A DNA stretch of 64,000 nt from Desulfoglaeba alkanexedens ALDC (GTDB lineage: Bacteria > Desulfobacterota > Syntrophobacteria > Syntrophobacterales > DSM-9756). The notes below the pieces were generated by a model. That model worked only from the letters and a program-made list of their open reading frames with translations. It was not told the origin of the DNA and did no database searches. Shown piece by piece: positions 7,049-48,201 of this stretch (position 1 is its first letter; the number at the start of each line of letters is the position of its first letter). A program made the translations under genes and the position numbers. The stretch lies in contig NZ_CP040098.1 in assembly GCF_005377625.1 (NCBI RefSeq), forward strand, positions 2,841,279-2,905,278, written 5' to 3'.

Positions 7049-7060
7049 AGGACTTCCACC

Positions 7061-7205
7061 TTGTTCCAAAGCTCCAGCTTGGGAACACAACTGTGCAGAA
7101 GCTCCAGCTTCGGTGAGGCCGTTCCCAAGCTGGAGCTTGGTAACGAGCGGGAAATTTTATTTCCCCTCCCCTTGTGGGAGGGGATTAAGGGGAGGGGGGA
7201 GAGGA
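7061..7205. repeat. Dispersed composite repeat (palindromic CCAGCTTGGGAAC unit plus CCCCTCCCC unit)
   Basis: Contains copies of a palindromic unit built on GTTCCCAAGCTCCAGC (with its inverted partner ending CCAGCTTGGGAAC), joined through GAACACAACTGTGCAGAAGC, then a unit CCCCTCCCCTTGTGGGAGG followed by ATTAAGGGGAGGGG. The same composite recurs at 8034-8222, 11541-11821 and, rearranged, at 45773-46258. No coding potential. The rest of 7206-7408 shows no gene. Confidence 0.88.
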
Positions 7206-8013: not shown

Positions 8014-8033
8014 GGAAGAGATTCAGTTTACTT

Positions 8034-8222
8034 CTTGTTCCCAAGCTCCAGCTTGGGAACACAACTGTGCAGAAGCTCCAGCTTCGGGCAGGCCGTTCCC
8101 AAGCTGGAGCTTGGGAACGAGCGGGAGATTTTATTTCCCCTCCCCTTGTGGGAGGGGATTAAGGGGAGGGGGGAGAGGGGGACTTTTTGACCTTGTTCCC
8201 AAGCTGGAGCTTGGGAACGAGG
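8034..8222. repeat. Dispersed composite repeat, second copy
   Basis: Close copy of the element at 7061-7205: palindromic unit GTTCCCAAGCTCCAGC with inverted partner, then CCCCTCCCCTTGTGGGAGG and ATTAAGGGGAGGGG, then a further palindromic unit near 8194-8222. With the first copy it brackets the toxin-antitoxin pair. Apart from this and the 54-bp repeat, 8014-8413 holds no gene. Confidence 0.88.
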
Positions 8223-8343
8223 GGAAACGGAGCTGATGCGGTTGCTGCTTCAGGGCCATATAGATCTACCTCAGAGGGTCACCCTGGATGTCGTTCTAAA
8301 AGATCCGCACCCAAATCAGTTCGCGCATTTATCGAGAAGATAC

Positions 8344-11540: not shown

Positions 11541-11821
11541 TCTTGTTCCCAAGCTCCAGGTTCCATCTTGTTCCCAAGCTCCAGCTTGGGAACACAACTG
11601 TGCAGAAGCTCCAGCTTCCATTCCTATGAGGCCGTTGCCAAGCCGGAGCTTGGTAACGAGCGGGAAATTTTATTTCCCCTCCCCTTGTGGGAGGGGATTA
11701 AGGGGAGGGGGAGAGGGGGATTTTCCATCTTGTTCCCAAGCTCCAGCTTGGGAACACAACTGTGCAGAAGCTCCAGCTTCGATTCCTATCCGTTCCCAAG
11801 CTTCAGCTTGGGAACGAGGCG
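11541..11821. repeat. Dispersed composite repeats, two tandem arrangements
   Basis: The stretch after treT is almost entirely repeat: palindromic GTTCCCAAGCTCCAGC units at about 11541-11663, a CCCCTCCCCTTGTGGGAGG unit at about 11675-11715, and more palindromic units at about 11728-11821. No gene is visible in 11528-11914. The repeats may act as a bidirectional transcription barrier between convergent treT and the secreted protein gene, but no clear T-tract terminator was seen. Confidence 0.85.
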
Positions 11822-11914
11822 AACATCCGTTCTGTCCAGATCGAGGCTTCCACCCATCCGCTTTCGCGTGTCCGAGAGGTGAGAGCCGTTCAGCTCAGTA
11901 ACGGGCGACGGGTT

Positions 11915-12842: not shown

Positions 12843-13328
12843 ATGAACATTCGATGGCGTTTGTTTCTGTTGGGGGTTCTCGCATTCACGATCACTGCCC
12901 TGGCCTGGATCCATCCGATCCCCTGCTATGGGGAGACCGTCCGTTCCGCCGGACAGACCCTCTACGTGCCCGCCTATTCCCACGTCTACCACGGCGATAA
13001 GGGAAAAACCTTCAACCTCACGGTCACGTTGAGCGTCCGGAACGCCGATACGAAAGCGTCGTTCCATCTGACGGCCGTCGATTATTACAGTTCGAAAGGC
13101 CGGCTCACGCGCAACTATCTGGAAAAACCCGTCTTGTTGGGCCCTTTGGAGTCCACGTACTTCATCGTGGGGGAATCGGACGTGAGCGGGGGAGGGGAGC
13201 CCTGCTTCATCGTCCGCTGGAAATCGGACAAGAAAATCAACCCGCCCGTGATCGAGGCGGTGATGATCGGAGCGTCTTCCTCCCAGGGGATTTCCTTCGT
13301 GTGCCCGGCGCGGGTCATCGAGGAATGA
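12843..13328 (+). CDS. DUF3124 family exported protein
   Basis: 161-aa protein with an N-terminal hydrophobic segment (about residues 7-28) consistent with a signal peptide. The mature part is beta-rich: LYVPAYSHVYHGDKGKTFNL, then VTLSVRNADTKASFHLTAVD and ESTYFIVGESDVSGGGEPCF. These fit DUF3124, small periplasmic proteins of unknown role. TGGAGG stands about 8 nt before the ATG at 12843, so the longer frame from 12771 is rejected. It is convergent with the TraB-family gene, with only about 40 nt between stops. Confidence 0.8.
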   Translation: MNIRWRLFLLGVLAFTITALAWIHPIPCYGETVRSAGQTLYVPAYSHVYHGDKGKTFNLTVTLSVRNADTKASFHLTAVDYYSSKGRLTRNYLEKPVLLGPLESTYFIVGESDVSGGGEPCFIVRWKSDKKINPPVIEAVMIGASSSQGISFVCPARVIEE

Positions 13329-29226: not shown

Positions 29227-29387
29227 GAGGAATCCCTCGTCTCTCGACGCAATTTTTGGAATGTGAACGTTCGTACCGCCGGGCGAAGCGAATACCGGCG
29301 TGACCCTAGGCCGGAACGACGTTAAGGGAATCCACGCGGCTTTGTCAAGCGTAGATCGACAGTGTTCAAAGCGTCGACTGATGCCAA

Positions 29388-29435
29388 ATTCTATTTCCCC
29401 TCCCCTTGTGGGAAGGGATTAAGGGGAGGGGGAGA
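29388..29435. repeat. Dispersed CCCCTCCCC repeat left of ssrA
   Basis: Unit CAAATTCTATTT-CCCCTCCCCTTGTGGGAAGG-ATTAAGGGGAGGGG, in plus orientation. An inverted copy lies at 30064-30180, so the tmRNA gene is enclosed by the pair. Confidence 0.85.
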
Positions 29436-30063: not shown

Positions 30064-30180
30064 AACTTCGTAGCGTGCTAAAGCGGAGACCTTAAGCAAA
30101 AAGGATAACGAAGGTCAAAAAATCCTCCTCTCCCCGCTCCCCTTACTCCCCTCCCACAAGGGGAGGGGAAATAGAATGTG
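30064..30180. repeat. Dispersed repeat between ssrA and smpB, inverted copy
   Basis: Reads CGTAGCGTGCTAAAG-CGGAGACCTTAAGCAAAAAGG-TAACGAAGGTCA on the plus strand and ends in CCCTCCCACAAGGGGAGGGG-AAATAGAAT. It is the reverse orientation of 29388-29435 and matches the right half of the unit at 45773-46258. The rest of 29908-30215 holds no gene. Confidence 0.82.
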
Positions 30181-30227: not shown

Positions 30228-30710
30228 GTATTTTTTCCGCATCCGGTCCATGTCCCGGGCTTCCTGCTTGCGTTTGAGGGTTTCGCGCTTGTCGTAGACC
30301 TTCTTGCCCCTGGCGAGGGCCAGTTCGACTTTCACCTTGCCCTGCTTGAAGTACATTTTGAGCGGCACCAGGGTGAGTCCGCGTTCCTGGGTCTTTCCCA
30401 AGAGGCGCTTGATTTCCCGGCGATGGAGAAGCAGCTTTCTCACCCTTTCCGGTTCGTGGTTGTTGTAGGAAGCCGAGGAGTAGGGGCTGATGTGCGCGCC
30501 GTGAAGAAAGACTTCGCCCCGCTTGATCTTGGCGTGGCTGTCCTTGAGGTTGGCGCGGCCTTCACGCAGGGATTTCACTTCGGAACCCAGAAGCACGATG
30601 CCCGCCTCGAAAGTCTCCAGGATCTCGAAGTCGTGATGCGCCTTTTTGTTGCTGCAAATGAGGCGTATTCCGTCCTTGGATCCCTTGGGTGCTTTTTTCT
30701 TGGCTGCCAT
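30216..30710 (-). CDS. smpB: SsrA-binding protein SmpB
   Basis: 164 aa, family length. ICSNKKAHHDFEILETFEAG, GSEVKSLREGRANLKDSHAK and the C-terminal basic tail (DKRETLKRKQEARDMDRMRK) are diagnostic. It binds tmRNA and delivers it to stalled ribosomes. The N-terminal extension MAAKKKAPKG is Lys-rich. A 15-bp tandem duplication covers its stop codon. Confidence 0.97.
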   Translation of the reverse strand: MAAKKKAPKGSKDGIRLICSNKKAHHDFEILETFEAGIVLLGSEVKSLREGRANLKDSHAKIKRGEVFLHGAHISPYSSASYNNHEPERVRKLLLHRREIKRLLGKTQERGLTLVPLKMYFKQGKVKVELALARGKKVYDKRETLKRKQEARDMDRMRKKYKVP

Positions 30711-33057: not shown

Positions 33058-33248
33058 AACTGTGCTCAAGCGTCGCCTGCTCCCGCCTGGGTCGAATTTT
33101 TGCGCGTCTCTTATCACATGGCCGGCGCGAAGTCAACTGAAGGTCCGGACCGACGACCTGTGGAAAGATGGGCTTGAAGCGAGCGATCAAGCCGTAATAA
33201 AAGGCACTGATGGCGGGCGTCTCTCATGATGGAGGATGTTCAAAATCT

Positions 33249-33410
33249 TGGTAGCATAGAAAATAATAGACAAATATTTGATGCCAAATTCTATTTCCCC
33301 TCCCCTTGTGGGAGGGGATTAAGGGGAGGGGAATGTAACTGACTAACATACATTAGTTTTCTCACCCTCACCCAAACCCTCTCCCATAAACGGAGTGGGT
33401 TCGGCCCTTC
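33249..33410. repeat. Dispersed repeat (GGTAGCAT-ended unit with CCCCTCCCC core)
   Basis: Starts TTGGTAGCATAGAAAATAAT, contains CAAATTCTATTT-CCCCTCCCCTTGTGGGAGG and continues through ACATACATTAGTTTTCTCAC-CCTCACCC to about 33410. It is closely similar over about 150 bp to 45773-45925, including the non-palindromic parts, so the repeat unit is larger than the C-rich core. No gene is visible in 33058-33500. Confidence 0.85.
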
Positions 33411-43091: not shown

Positions 43092-45734
43092 TCAGAAAAA
43101 CCCTCCCATGGAGAACTGCCACTTGCTCTTGCTTTCTCCGGGTTCCGGATCGAGGTTGTAGCCCCACTCGATCCGCAGGGGTCCCATGGGCGAGTTCCAC
43201 CGGATGCCTCCGCCCGCCCCCGTTCGGAAATCCGATATTCGGAAGTCTTCATCGTCGTCGAAGGCATTGCCCGCGTCGAAGAACATCACACCGCGGACCC
43301 CGAGCTTTTCGATCAACGGGAAAAGCAATTCTAAATTAACGAGCCCAAACTTCAAGCCCCCGATGCTGTCTCCAGTCTCGGGATCCTCGGGGCCGACGTC
43401 GCCCCAGTCGAAGGCGCGGATGGAATTGATACCGCCCAGGAAGAAGCGTTCGTAGATCGGAACGGGATTATCCTCGTCGAGTTCCACGATCCATCCGACG
43501 TTGCCTCGCACGAAGCCCACGAATTTCCAGAACAACGGGAAGTACCGGCCGGAATCGATGACGGCGCTTACAAAATCGCTGTCGCTTCCCAGATAAGGGC
43601 TGGAAAACTCTAAGGACAAACTGTTTACGGACCCCCGGGTCGGCATAAACGGGTGGTCGGTGCTGTCCCGTTCGATGGACCCCATCACGGCGCTTTTCAG
43701 CTGTCTACCCTCTTGATCCTGGATGATGACTGCGGCGTCGTCGTCTACGTCGGTCACTTCCGCGTCCTCGAGGACGTAGGCGAGGTGCCAGCGGCTCCAG
43801 TTTCCAAAAGGATGGCTGATCCGTACCTTGCCTCCTTGGGCGTCCTTGTCGAAATCGTTGTATTCCCGGTACCAATCGTAAATGTCGAAGCCGAGCGAGA
43901 GCGGCTTGTCGAAAAGCCATGGCTCAGTGAAACTAATTGAATAACGCTGCGTTTCGCCTCCAAGGTAGGCCTTGAGAGCCAACTGCTGGCCCCGGCCGAA
44001 CAAGTTGCGCTGAAGGATGTCCCCGCCGATGAACACACCCTCGTCCGAAGAAAAGCCGCCGCCCACGCTGAACGATCCGGTGGACTTTTCCTTGACGCGC
44101 ACGTGGAGGTTCATCGCGTCTTCCTCGGTGCCCTGGGAAGGAAGGATTTCGGCTTCCTCGAAGTAATCCAGGCGCTTGAGGTTGAGGTTCGTACGTTCCA
44201 GCGCGCTCGCGCTGTATGTGTCGCCTTCAGCGAGTGTGAACTGGCGCCGGATCACCTTGTCCTGCGTCTTCACGTTGCCTGAAATGGTGATGCGCTCGAT
44301 ATGGATCTTTTTACCCTTGTGCACCTCATATATCACGTCCGCCGTGTTATCTTCCGGCCGGCGGATGACCCTCGGGTTCACTTCGGTATAGGCGTAGCCT
44401 TCGTCCATGTAGGCGGTGGTGATCTTCTTCAGGTCGTTTCGAAGCTTCTCGCGGCTGAAATAGTCCCCCTCCTTCAGTTCGAGCTGATCCTGGAGCGTTT
44501 CGTTCAGTTCCTGGAGATCCCCGGCTATGCCCACCGAACTCATTCGGTACCGTTCGCCCTCTTCGATGGGAAACTCCACCGTGAAGCCTTCACCGTCCTG
44601 CTTCACCTCGGGCGAGCCCACACGAGCGTCCATGAATCCCTGATCGTGGTAAAAGGCGGTCAGGCGGTCCACGTCGGTTTCCAGAACATCGCGCTGCAGC
44701 ACGCCCTTGTCGCTGAACCAGTGAAACCAGCCCCGTTTTTTGGTTTCCATGACGCTTCGGAGCTTCCGGTCGGAAAAGCTGTGGTTGCCGATGAAATCGA
44801 TCCTCTTGATGTAGATTTTATTGTTTTCACGGATGTTGAAGGTGACCACGGCCTGGCGGGGATCCTTAGGAAACTGGATGACGTGGTCCACTTCGGCATC
44901 GAAATACGCCTTTTGATGGTATAGGGACAGGATGCGCTGCACGTCCTCGGTGACCACGTTGGGCTGAAGCACGGTGTACGGTTTGGTGGAAATGGCGGCG
45001 AGGATATCCTTGTCGTCGATTTCCTTGTTTCCTTCAATCCGGACATCAATCACCGTGGGTTTTTCGCGGACCACGAAGGTGAGGATCTTGCCGGCCGGAC
45101 TGTCGCTCACCTCCGCCTCCACCGACTCGAAATAGCCCATCTGGTAAATGGTCTTGATGTCTTCGCGGACCACGTCGGGACGCAGCACCTCCCCTTTACG
45201 GTTCTTCAGATTGATGCGGATGGCGTCGGCTTCGATCCGTTCGTTGCCACGCACCTGGATGTCCGCGATCAGGGCTTTTGCAAGGACGTGGACCACCACC
45301 TGCTGTGTGAGTTCACGGGTGGCGGAGGCCAACTGGTCGATGGATGCGGCTTCGGCAAACAGGGCTTGGGGGGGCCTGCCTTCCCGGAGGTCCACCAGGG
45401 TGGCGTCCAGGCTGAACCGCTGGCCCACCTGAGTCAGGCTGCCGTAGACGACATAGTCGGCTTCCAGTCGCCGGCCCAGCGCGGAAGCCTCATCCGGATC
45501 CCGCACGCCACCAATAGACTGCGCCGCCTGAGCCGCCTGCTCCGACGGTACCGCGTCGACGCCCTGTTCACCCAGGGCGCGGGTCAGGAGATCCTGGGCC
45601 ATGCGCCCGAGGGTGGGCATGGGGTCTTGGGTGAACACCGCGAAAGGAGCCACGGCAATTCGAGGGGAGGGTTCCTGCGCGGAGGCGACACCCGCGGCCA
45701 GCACCATAAGCAGGGGGAGGACGAGTTTACGCAT
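43092..45734 (-). CDS. bamA: Outer membrane assembly factor BamA with extra N-terminal domain
   Basis: 880 aa. Signal peptide 1-19. Residues about 23-150 form a domain absent from standard BamA: PRIAVAPFAVF, then LGRRLEADYVVYGSLTQVGQ and SLDATLVDLREG, resembling TolB-N/FlgO-like modules. Five POTRA domains follow from about 155 (IADIQVRGNERIEADAIR), then the beta-barrel with VRGNVGWIVELD, IRAFDWGD, and a C-terminal Phe (SMGGFF). It inserts outer membrane proteins. The ATG at 45734 has AAGGA 11 nt upstream; a frame to 45875 runs into a repeat and is rejected. Confidence 0.94.
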   Translation of the reverse strand: MRKLVLPLLMVLAAGVASAQEPSPRIAVAPFAVFTQDPMPTLGRMAQDLLTRALGEQGVDAVPSEQAAQAAQSIGGVRDPDEASALGRRLEADYVVYGSLTQVGQRFSLDATLVDLREGRPPQALFAEAASIDQLASATRELTQQVVVHVLAKALIADIQVRGNERIEADAIRINLKNRKGEVLRPDVVREDIKTIYQMGYFESVEAEVSDSPAGKILTFVVREKPTVIDVRIEGNKEIDDKDILAAISTKPYTVLQPNVVTEDVQRILSLYHQKAYFDAEVDHVIQFPKDPRQAVVTFNIRENNKIYIKRIDFIGNHSFSDRKLRSVMETKKRGWFHWFSDKGVLQRDVLETDVDRLTAFYHDQGFMDARVGSPEVKQDGEGFTVEFPIEEGERYRMSSVGIAGDLQELNETLQDQLELKEGDYFSREKLRNDLKKITTAYMDEGYAYTEVNPRVIRRPEDNTADVIYEVHKGKKIHIERITISGNVKTQDKVIRRQFTLAEGDTYSASALERTNLNLKRLDYFEEAEILPSQGTEEDAMNLHVRVKEKSTGSFSVGGGFSSDEGVFIGGDILQRNLFGRGQQLALKAYLGGETQRYSISFTEPWLFDKPLSLGFDIYDWYREYNDFDKDAQGGKVRISHPFGNWSRWHLAYVLEDAEVTDVDDDAAVIIQDQEGRQLKSAVMGSIERDSTDHPFMPTRGSVNSLSLEFSSPYLGSDSDFVSAVIDSGRYFPLFWKFVGFVRGNVGWIVELDEDNPVPIYERFFLGGINSIRAFDWGDVGPEDPETGDSIGGLKFGLVNLELLFPLIEKLGVRGVMFFDAGNAFDDDEDFRISDFRTGAGGGIRWNSPMGPLRIEWGYNLDPEPGESKSKWQFSMGGFF

Positions 45735-45772
45735 CCGTCTGAGCTTCCTTGGTTTTTTCGACCACGAACCCT

Positions 45773-46258
45773 TTGGTAGCGTAAAAAATAATAGACGTAA
45801 TATTTGATACCAAATTCTATTTCCCCTCCCCTTGTGGGAGGGGATTAAGGGGAGGGGAACGTAACTGATTGACATACGTTAATTTTCTCATCCTCACCCC
45901 AACCCTCTCCCATCAAGGGAGAGAGGGATTTTCCCCTCGTTCCCAAGCTCCAGCTTGGGAACGCCCTGCCCGGGAAGCTCCAGCTTCCCTCCTGCTACAG
46001 CTGAAACGCGCTGTCTTTCTAGGGAGCTCGCCAGGATCTCGAAGTGGTCTTTCCCCTCGTTGCCAAGCTCTGGCTTGGGAACGGCCTCACCGAAGCTGGA
46101 GCTTCTGCACACTTGTGTTTCCAAGCTGGAGCTTGGGAACAAGAAGCAAAAGATCTGCACCCATTCTATTTCCCTTCCCCTTGTGGGAGAGGGGGAGAGG
46201 GGGATTTTCTGACCTTCGTTAACCTTTTTGCTTAAAGTCTCCACTTTAGAACGCTACC
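45773..46258. repeat. Composite dispersed element with GGTAGCGT ends between lolD and bamA
   Basis: The left end reads TTTGGTAGCGTAAAAAATAA and the right end AGAACGCTACCAACCC, whose reverse complement starts GGGTTGGTAGCGTTCT; the 8-bp ends GGTAGCGT are inverted. Inside are CCCCTCCCCTTGTGGG units at both sides and palindromic GTTCCCAAGCTCCAGC units between. Partial copies: 33249-33410 (left half) and 30064-30180 (right half). No open frame of note, so it looks like a non-autonomous element. It fills the 531-nt gap between lolD and bamA. Confidence 0.8.
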
Positions 46259-46265
46259 AACCCTT

Positions 46266-46967
46266 TTATGCCTCTTTAAGCTGTCCGTTCACCAAGCGAA
46301 GTGTCCGATGCATCAACGACGCCAGTTCGCGGTTGTGCGTCACCACCACCATGGTGATGCGGAGTTCTTCGTTGAGCGAAACCAGCAGGTCGTGCAGCTG
46401 CCGCCCCGTCCGCGTATCCAGGTTTCCGGTCGGCTCGTCGGCCAGGACCACCTTGGGTTTCATGAGGAGTGCACGAGCCACCGCCACCCGCTGCTGTTCG
46501 CCTCCGGACATTTCGGCCGGTCGATGTTGGGCCCGATCCGCCAGTCCCAGCCGCTCCAGCAAGGCTTCCGCTTCCCCGCGCAACTCCCGCCGGGGCCTTC
46601 CCGCAATGTGCCCCGGCATCATCACGTTCTCCAGGGCGCTGAATTCGGGCAGCAGGTAATGGAACTGAAAAACAAACCCGATGCTCCGGTTCCTGAATCC
46701 TGCCAGTTCCCGGTCGTTCCAGGCCAGCACGTCGTCGCCGCCGAAAAGGACCTTCCCGGATGTGGGCCGGTCCAAAGTCCCCAGGATGTGAAGCAGCGTC
46801 GACTTTCCGGCACCCGATGCGCCGACGATGGCAAGCCGTTCCCCCCGCTGGATGACCAGTTCCAGGTCCCGGAAGAGCTCGATTCGTAGCGGTCCGTTCT
46901 GAAAGACTTTTCCGATACCCAGGGCGTGAATATGTGCGGCCTGGCGGTGGTTGACGGTCTCATTCAT
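46266..46967 (-). CDS. lolD: Lipoprotein-releasing ABC ATPase LolD
   Basis: 233 aa with Walker A GASGAGKST, Q-loop FVFQFHYLLPEFSALENVMM, signature MSGGEQQRVAVARALLMKPK and Walker B VVLADEPTGNLDTRTG. FQFHYLLPEFSALENVMMP is typical of LolD. It powers release of lipoproteins from the inner membrane. The ATG at 46967 overlaps the lolC/E end by 8 nt. Confidence 0.93.
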   Translation of the reverse strand: MNETVNHRQAAHIHALGIGKVFQNGPLRIELFRDLELVIQRGERLAIVGASGAGKSTLLHILGTLDRPTSGKVLFGGDDVLAWNDRELAGFRNRSIGFVFQFHYLLPEFSALENVMMPGHIAGRPRRELRGEAEALLERLGLADRAQHRPAEMSGGEQQRVAVARALLMKPKVVLADEPTGNLDTRTGRQLHDLLVSLNEELRITMVVVTHNRELASLMHRTLRLVNGQLKEA

Positions 46968-48201
46968 AGCGCAGAGCTTCCGCCGGATTGAGTTTCGCGG
47001 CCTGCCCGGACGGGTAGAGGGTGGCACCGAGGCAAATGGCCACCGCGGCCAGCGCGATGAGGGTCACATCGGTCATTTCCATCCGGACCGGCAGCGTCGA
47101 AATGTAATAGACGTCGCGAGGAAGTTCGATGAACTGGTAGCGCTTCAGCAGGCCACACAATGAAAAGCCCCCGGCCAGGCCGAAAAGGGTGCCCACGACA
47201 CCGATCATGAGGCCTTCCAGGACGAAGATTCTCCGGATGCTCGACGTGCTCGCCCCCATGGCTTTCAATATGGCGATATCGCGCGTTTTCTCCATGACCA
47301 TCATGATGAGGGAACTCACGATGTTGAAGGCCGCCACCAGGACGATCAGCGTCAAAATGATAAACATCACCACTTTTTCCAGCTTCAAGGCCGAAAAAAG
47401 GTTCTGATTCATCTGCATCCAGTCCCTGACCCAGTAAGGATAGCCCAGCTTTTCGCGGAGCCGCTCCGCCACCGCATGGGCCTTGTAAATATCTTCCACG
47501 CGGACCTCGACCCCCGAAACCACGTCGCCGATACCGAGAAGTTGCTGCGCCGACTCCACGTGCACGTAGGCGAGGGTGTTGTCATATTCGTACATGCCGG
47601 ATTGAAACAGCCCCACCACCCGAAACATCTGGCTCTTGGGGACACGGCCCACCGGCGTCAGCCGGCCGGACGGGGCGATGACCGTGAGGTAGTCGCCGGT
47701 TCCGACTCCAAGGTTTTTCGCCAGTTCGACGCCGAGCACGATTCCCGCGCGGTGTTCCGCTTCCGTCGAACCAGAAGGGGGCTTGAGCGCTTCCAGGTCG
47801 CCTTCCAGCAGGTTCTTGCGGATTCCGGTCACCCGGTGAGACGTTTCGGGATCGATTCCCCGGACGATGGCTCCCGAAATGTTCTTTCCCGAATTGAGCA
47901 TCACCTGAGTGTAAATGAAAGGCGTGGCGGCCACGACGCCTTCACTGGCTTCGGCCGCCTTCACGATGGCTTCATAATCGTCGATGTTGCCCTGGAAATG
48001 GCCGATCACCACATGAGACGTGACCCCCAGGATCCGATCCCGCAGGTCTTCCTGGAATCCGTTCATCACGGCGAGTACCACGATGAGTGCCGTCACTCCG
48101 ACCGCCACCCCCGCCATGGAAATGAGCGTGATCAGGGAGATAAAGGCATGCCGCCTCTTGCCCAGAAGGTATCGGAGACTGACGATGAGTTCGAAGTTCA
48201 T
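46960..48201 (-). CDS. lolC: Lipoprotein-releasing permease LolC/LolE
   Basis: 413 aa with the four-TM FtsX layout: TM1 at about 20-48 (FISLITLISMAGVAVGVTAL), a periplasmic domain to about 265, and three C-terminal helices (VMFIILTLIVLVAAFNIVSS onward). A single LolC/E gene with lolD suggests a homodimeric LolF-like transporter rather than LolC plus LolE. The start overlaps the lysS stop (ATGA). Confidence 0.93.
   Translation of the reverse strand: MNFELIVSLRYLLGKRRHAFISLITLISMAGVAVGVTALIVVLAVMNGFQEDLRDRILGVTSHVVIGHFQGNIDDYEAIVKAAEASEGVVAATPFIYTQVMLNSGKNISGAIVRGIDPETSHRVTGIRKNLLEGDLEALKPPSGSTEAEHRAGIVLGVELAKNLGVGTGDYLTVIAPSGRLTPVGRVPKSQMFRVVGLFQSGMYEYDNTLAYVHVESAQQLLGIGDVVSGVEVRVEDIYKAHAVAERLREKLGYPYWVRDWMQMNQNLFSALKLEKVVMFIILTLIVLVAAFNIVSSLIMMVMEKTRDIAILKAMGASTSSIRRIFVLEGLMIGVVGTLFGLAGGFSLCGLLKRYQFIELPRDVYYISTLPVRMEMTDVTLIALAAVAICLGATLYPSGQAAKLNPAEALRYE

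Follow-up and report, generated by a model that had tools for sequence, protein, structure and literature searches.

A probable chimeric MITE between lolD and bamA in Desulfoglaeba alkanexedens ALDC, and the exchange of interiors between two element families

The element between lolD and bamA

In the genome of Desulfoglaeba alkanexedens ALDC, a stretch of 64,000 bp (contig NZ_CP040098.1, positions 2,841,279 to 2,905,278, called the window below) was analyzed. Between a lolD-type ABC_tran gene and bamA (POTRA and Omp85 domains), it carries an element of the miniature inverted-repeat transposable element (MITE) type, 488 bp in length, located at 45773-46260 and assigned to a family which we label M1. 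A preliminary description of this DNA had placed a 486-bp unit with internal palindromic and C-rich repeats at 45773-46258, between the same two genes. The unit, its repeats, and its neighbors are as described there, but its end was set 2 bp short, and the inverted ends given (GGTAGCGT) are correct apart from the two outermost bases of the full end (TTGGTAGCGT), which were left out.

The terminal inverted repeats of the element (TTGGTAGCGT on the left and ACGCTACCAA on the right) are complementary at 10/10 bp, and the element is bordered by a perfect 4-bp direct repeat, CCCT, at 45769-45772 and 46261-46264. Since 40 inverted 10-bp pairs spaced 350-600 bp apart occur in the window, such a pair is unremarkable by itself; when matching 4-bp flanks are required (at distances of 100-700 bp), four pairs are left, and two of the three others fall in GTTCCC-palindrome sequence. 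It is the copy number of its ends, given below, that places the element beyond chance. The element is short and has no transposase gene (the plain form of the family is 212 bp long and the hybrid form 488 bp), and no open reading frame of at least 120 aa lies wholly within it.

Its parts occur in the order M1 1-160, M2 86-318 (from a second family, M2, the left end of which is lost and the right end intact), M1 42-71, and M1 145-212. The features are listed here in window positions, with the basis of each in brackets.

45769..45772, no strand: left target duplication CCCT (sequence)
45773..46260, plus strand: complete chimeric M1 element, 488 bp (genome copies)
45773..45782, plus strand: left terminal inverted repeat TTGGTAGCGT (inverted-end comparison)
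45773..45932, plus strand: M1 1-160, left end and C-rich interior (95% identity to a plain 212-bp copy)
45821..45859, plus strand: C-rich hairpin A of the M1 interior (G-quadruplex-type run on the plus strand, read from the sequence)
45890..45927, plus strand: C-rich hairpin B of the M1 interior, approximately A in inverted form (limits by eye)
45930..46162, plus strand: left-truncated M2 element, M2 86-318 (98% identity to the reference M2)
45939..45962, plus strand: M2 palindrome GTTCCCAAGCTCCAGCTTGGGAAC, first copy (sequence)
46059..46082, plus strand: M2 palindrome, second copy (sequence)
46117..46140, plus strand: M2 palindrome, third copy (sequence)
46148..46162, plus strand: intact M2 right end AAAAGATCTGCACCC (sequence, end matches)
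46163..46193, plus strand: repeated M1 piece, M1 42-71, after the M2 end (alignment)
46193..46260, plus strand: M1 145-212, right end (alignment)
46251..46260, plus strand: right terminal inverted repeat ACGCTACCAA (inverted-end comparison)
46261..46264, no strand: right target duplication CCCT (sequence)

The families M1 and M2 and their interchangeable interiors

The genome to which the window belongs (3,365,583 bases in one contig) was searched, and copies of M1 and M2 were counted only in the matching stretches (about 502,300 of the 3,365,583 bases), so that the counts do not amount to a complete census; one of the M1 searches scored the best 40 of 188 candidates. The reversed motif served as the control in the case of end counts, and flanks paired between different copies in that of duplications. 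The M1 end TTGGTAGCGT occurs 74 times genome-wide vs. 5 for the control, and the left end taken with its subterminal bases, with at most one mismatch, 57 times vs. 0. The terminal inverted repeats are conserved among the copies, and the lack of conservation which, according to the preliminary description, would have refuted its proposal did not occur. A perfect 4-bp duplication was found in 26 of the 40 two-ended M1 copies and a match at 3 or more of the 4 bases in 36/40, vs. 0.9% perfect duplications in mismatched flank pairs: the target duplication of M1 has a constant length of 4 bp. Two A residues precede it (35 and 36 of 40) and two T residues follow it (again 35 and 36 of 40), the target of M1 thus being AA-NNNN-TT. 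Since the copies at 12927 and 3351755 are one locus present twice (they share their flanks and lie in the untrimmed overlap of the contig ends), the number of independent loci is 39. The conserved ends and the duplications, of which CCCT at the window copy is an instance, bear out the non-autonomous mobile element originally proposed.

The plain M1 form is 212 bp long and shorter forms measure about 152 bp; many copies are internally rearranged, showing tandem duplications and deletions. A G-quadruplex-type run is present on at least one strand in 36/40 copies vs. 67/2000 random 212-bp pieces of the window, some of the copies compared being longer than 212 bp, and such runs are present on both strands in 22/40. 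Six copies (2552222, 778437, 1318208, 1891555, 2812564, and 3057948) have one left flank in common, and four a common right flank: they sit at one point in a third repeat, the left part of which reads ...ATGACCCCGNGGGGTCAC... and the right part of which ends in ...GGTTATTTTCATATAA. With M2 present at 1318208 as well, this locus shows three levels of nesting.

The second family was found by reading leftwards from a 233-bp inner repeat at 13 loci, 12 of which showed a new end. The M2 ends read GGGTGCRGATCTTTT and occur 171 times in the genome with at most one mismatch (vs. 2 for the reversed control); two-ended forms range from 131 to 387 bp and commonly measure about 140, 198, and 317-319 bp. 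M2 has its own inverted ends and its own constant duplication, of 9 bp, which is perfect in 10 of 27 two-ended copies and matches at 7 or 8 of the 9 bases in four more, while mismatched flank pairs never exceed 7 of 9. The interior of M2 is rich in the palindrome GTTCCCAAGCTCCAGCTTGGGAAC, a 23-base version of which, with at most three mismatches, was counted 445 times forward and 443 times in reverse (largely the same sites, the motif being palindromic) vs. 0 for the control. An M2-ended span of 1019 bp at 86823-87841 was left out of the M2 count, its flanks matching at 5 of 9 bases only; judging by eye, a rhodanese-like gene starting MKVKTLLTALIVFL lies there between two M2 pieces, without any matching target duplications. 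Inner pieces of M2 form a tandem array at 2265226-2266165 with a spacing of about 241-253 bp, and TTCGATG tandem repeats border several M2 copies.

Both junctions of the window copy recur elsewhere. The right one, where the M2 right end meets M1 position 42, was also found at 1069233, 1155287, 3331732, and 3331962, and at 86833 it is the M2 left end that abuts the same M1 position, M2 being reversed there. The left one, located at the word TTTTCCCC, which is similar in M1 and M2, is present at 1069615, 3331472, 3057948, 1155085, and 2276450; altered versions of it occur at 757847 and near 759468. An intact nest was also identified, consisting of an M2 at 1318333-1318657 with ATCAAATAT on both sides, inside an M1 at 1318208-1318693 with ACTT on both sides.

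In a uniform scan, M2 palindromes were present in 6 of 34 M1-ended elements, four of which (171234, 1095815, 2570380, and the window copy) have perfect 4-bp duplications, the matches being 3/4 at 1069111 and 1/4 at 3331472; two further M1-ended cases containing M2 lie outside that scan, at 1318208 (4/4) and 2974758 (3/4). The reverse arrangement, M1 interior within M2 ends, occurred in 5 of 28 M2-ended spans, of which four are real, since the one at 1095839-1096233 pairs ends wrongly across an M1 boundary and was rejected. The four are located at 30564 (9/9), 1490630 (9/9), 602273 (6/9), and 1128595 (3/9 in register, although by eye eight consecutive flank bases match on a one-base shift). The M1 interior occupies the same or nearly the same place of M2 in these four, in a fifth at about 653600, and in the decayed M2 copy located in the window at 8027-8312. 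In all six hybrids of the uniform scan with perfect duplications, the length of the duplication follows the ends and not the interior. The interiors are interchangeable between M1 and M2, and the ends decide the duplication length. That the element was assembled from smaller repeats, as the preliminary description had it, agrees with an interior joining two distinct repeat families; what goes beyond it is the two-way exchange and the fact that the second component has ends and 9-bp duplications of its own. The M1-ended element at 2974758-2975281 also holds a GAACATC-type minisatellite beside its M2 piece, which the TTCGATG tandem repeats bordering several M2 copies resemble.

Proposed history and alternative explanations

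The window element is very probably a chimeric MITE in which M1 ends enclose part of an M2, the hybrid having spread on the M1 ends and likely having moved as a unit. From the ends, duplications, target preference, composition, shared junctions, and reverse chimeras observed, we infer transposition in trans and the following order of events and route of recombination. The TTGGTAGCGT ends would be recognized by a transposase supplied in trans, which would make a 4-bp staggered cut at AA-NNNN-TT and place the element there. An M2, normally mobile on its own ends with a 9-bp duplication, would have been inserted into the interior of an M1; the intact nest at 1318333-1318657 is an example of this simple first step. 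The M2 left end might then have been lost, and part of M1 duplicated, through recombination or template switching at shared short C-rich words (TTTTCCCC/TTTCCCCTC), after which the resulting hybrid would have spread on M1 ends, the window copy entering the lolC-lolD-bamA run one base past the lolD stop codon.

Several observations weigh against this history. Perfect duplications are absent in 14/40 M1 copies and 17/27 M2 copies. Both M1 ends are kept at only three of the left-junction loci, where the duplications match at 4/4 (window copy), 3/4, and 1/4; with so few two-ended junction loci, it is mainly the window copy and that at 1069111 which support a hybrid moving as one unit. Gene conversion could have copied the junction between existing M1 copies. 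As to the transposase with matching ends which the preliminary description had suggested looking for, no autonomous partner of this kind was found in this genome at the 16 DDE_Tnp_1 (PF01609), 4 Transposase_mut (PF00872), and 6 Y1_Tnp (PF01797) loci, other families not having been searched; no pair of M1 or M2 ends brackets any of the transposase genes looked at in this genome, and pattern scans of genome_contigs and viral_contigs for a partner yielded nothing convincing.

Several of these transposase genes do have a single M1 end, a single M2 end, or an entire M2 copy nearby. The multi-copy insertion sequences (DDE_Tnp_1 and Transposase_mut), whose copies were also compared with one another, were rejected as partners because their ends differ (e.g., CAGCAATTTCCGGAGCC and GGTGGTGTAAGATTTTTTGTG), and the transposase gene beside the M1 copy at 2597982, which we take to be ISAs1-like, is a mere neighbor, that M1 having its own CGAT duplication. 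Since no partner was found, what assigns the element to the MITEs is its ends, its duplications, and its copy number. The first 26.1 kb or so of the contig and its last 26.8 kb (3,338,811-3,365,583) are repeats of one another, as judged from sampled stretches, presumably reflecting a circular assembly left untrimmed. The high-end version contains about 631 extra bases with an IS200-type gene, absent from the other version, which suggests a recent or ongoing jump.

Among the alternatives, the one that fares best supposes that a plain 212-bp M1 was inserted between lolD and bamA and that gene conversion from another hybrid copy subsequently exchanged its interior on the spot, the hybrid itself never having moved. 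Recombination between copies is evidently common, the palindromes being repeated hundreds of times and many copies being rearranged, and the fact that only the window copy has a perfect duplication among the three two-ended left-junction loci is in keeping with this explanation. However, M2 palindromes are present at four M1-ended loci that differ in their flanks and have perfect 4-bp duplications, and two M2-ended reverse hybrids have perfect 9-bp ones, so that a separate conversion would be needed at each locus. We therefore consider it unlikely, although by no means negligible, and prefer the spread of a chimeric MITE.

The palindromic part might instead be a repeat of the repetitive extragenic palindrome (REP) or REPIN type, spread by a Y1 (RAYT) transposase, and not a second MITE. 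The palindromes are numerous, the genome encodes Y1 transposases, one of which is RAYT-like, a divergent palindrome, with 4 mismatches in 22, is located close to the RAYT-like gene on one side, and one of three IS200-type genes (locus L036) has two palindromes upstream. The three best Y1 copies, however, are of the IS200 type with identical scores, and palindromes are found near only one of them; none are present at loci L035, L037, L038, and L040. The RAYT-like gene at 195300-195668 (locus L039) is surrounded mostly, judging by eye, by a different repeat, GGTGCGTTGCGCCCGCTGTCGCGGGCTTCACGCACCCTACG. Moreover, the units that carry the palindromes have inverted ends and 9-bp duplications of their own; duplications of this kind are not known to arise in Y1 transposition. 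A RAYT/REPIN origin is thus improbable and was set aside after the test at the Y1_Tnp loci.

Hardly credible is a non-mobile mosaic of repeats that arose through slippage and was retained for its RNA or DNA structure, for example as an operon attenuator. In its favor, folding of the region on the bamA-sense strand is much stronger than that of shuffled sequence (z -7.6), and the G-quadruplex-type runs counted above would fit such a role. Against it, the duplications and the AA-NNNN-TT target, seen at scattered loci, are typical of transposition; neither a sigma-70-type promoter nor a terminator was predicted in the lolD-bamA region, and the Rfam search of this region gave only sub-threshold matches, no family reaching its threshold.

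Genomic setting, distribution, and known systems

The insertion into the lolC-lolD-bamA gene run left the lolD reading frame and the probable bamA start intact. The right CCCT duplication ends one base from the lolD stop codon, and the lolD-bamA gap of 531 bp would measure about 39 bp without the element and one duplication. A signal-peptide-like bamA start, read from the sequence, is located at 45734, outside the element, and the longest bamA reading frame (43092-45875) starts at 45875, inside it; the former start is the more likely one, and automatic annotation could misplace it. A strongly folding stretch would be added to any read-through transcript of the lolD-bamA run. The two half-units given in the preliminary description, at 33249-33410 and 30064-30180, correspond to truncated M1 copies, which are listed here with lolD and the other pieces present in the window.

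46266-47027, minus strand: lolD, adjoining the element
33248..33399, plus strand: truncated M1 copy (M1 1-153) without right end (alignment)
30067..30177, minus strand: truncated M1 copy (M1 42-85 and 145-212) without left end (alignment)
29379..29431, plus strand: M1 interior fragment, M1 33-85 (alignment)
8027..8312, minus strand: M2 copy with intact left end, decayed right end, and M1 interior pieces, a chimera of the reverse kind
7054..7197, no strand: M2 palindrome piece fused to M1 interior (alignment)
11552..11823, no strand: M1 interior piece with M2 palindrome pieces on both sides (alignment)

The M1 ends were found essentially only in this genome. With at most one mismatch, the left end occurs once each in 2 of 394 other genomes of a sample of the phylum (reversed control, 3), which includes no genome of the same genus. 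Hits to the M1 end were also obtained in two viral contigs and five records of genome_contigs, a collection that may leave out near relatives; four of these five records presumably belong to Bacteroidota, judging from their titles. All these matches look like chance and were not taken to be true copies. The C-rich interior of M1, by contrast, recurs across the phylum. In a search of relatives, the 212-bp M1 query matched 38 of 96 other genomes, all in the C-rich interior among the matches listed, where alignments spanning both hairpins were found in at least 16 genomes by our own count; the M2 inner repeat matched 8 of the 96, by palindrome-containing pieces among the matches listed.

In one other genome (G060), six of eight fetched interior copies lie in an element of 154-156 bp with the ends TGATGRYYTCGTAAAAAGTC, flanked by perfect 4-bp direct repeats in four cases (TTCT, TAAT, AGAA, and TAAA) and by matches of 3 of 4 and 1 of 4 in the two others. 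In a second (G046), two of five fetched copies, located at different sites, are enclosed by perfect GAGGCTGTCCGA ends and flanked by TTAG on either side; the ends of a third are imperfect. No such ends were detected around four fetched copies in a third genome (G084), in a scan where chance inverted 12-mers with one or two mismatches do occur. The same interior is thus carried by M1 (4-bp duplications) and M2 (9-bp duplications) in D. alkanexedens and by MITEs with different ends in G060 and G046. It is possible, although we put this forward tentatively, that the C-rich double-hairpin interior is a passenger taken up repeatedly by unrelated ends across the phylum, the interior and not the ends being the lasting unit. 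The ends of G060 and those of M1, both of which have 4-bp duplications, may also be distant relatives, in which case the interior may have been inherited there and not exchanged.

The classification of MITEs is usually based on their ends, and they are regarded as decayed relatives of a single transposon. Here, two families with different ends and duplication lengths swap interiors, and the ends still predict the duplication length. The part responsible for movement can thus be told apart from the cargo, and the question of whether a structured interior travels well as a passenger can be asked in a clean system. A housekeeping run such as lolC-lolD-bamA can also gain a highly structured spacer of about 490 bp without any loss of genes.

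No report of such a two-way exchange was recognized by title in literature searches covering open-licence papers, where text searches for parts of the repeats returned only papers which, by their titles, concern other matters; one containing the words "chimeric MITE" is, by its listing, about chromosomal inversions and was not kept as a precedent. Among the known systems compared, a likeness in general build is shown by MITEPsy1 of Pseudomonas syringae, a short, non-autonomous MITE with inverted ends and, as in M1, a 4-nt target duplication (PMC3189936); the excerpt of this paper that was compared shows no exchange of interiors with a second family, and the likeness is one of description, not of sequence. 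BrickBuilt of Porphyromonas gingivalis is likewise described as a MITE found between genes, its inverted ends being small and its interior repetitive, but this interior is a 23-nt minisatellite (PMC4596501), whereas here parts of two families are exchanged between different ends. REPs and REPINs, as presented in the corresponding excerpts, resemble M2 in consisting of inverted pairs of short palindromes (PMC3733652, PMC3116915), and some REP dimers lie inside other palindromic repeats, mosaic regions being described in Neisseria (PMC3733652). Unlike the REPs and REPINs of that excerpt (PMC3733652), the palindromes studied here are carried by elements that have ends of their own and 4- or 9-bp duplications, and no RAYT clearly associated with them was found in this genome. 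The Tn3-derived miniature elements called TIMEs are, according to the excerpt, moved in trans and can form composites (PMC13367494); they are likened to the present elements by description and not by end sequences, and differ in that a single element here has a foreign interior. The elements described here are a new family of a known kind, with an unusually clear two-way exchange of interiors.
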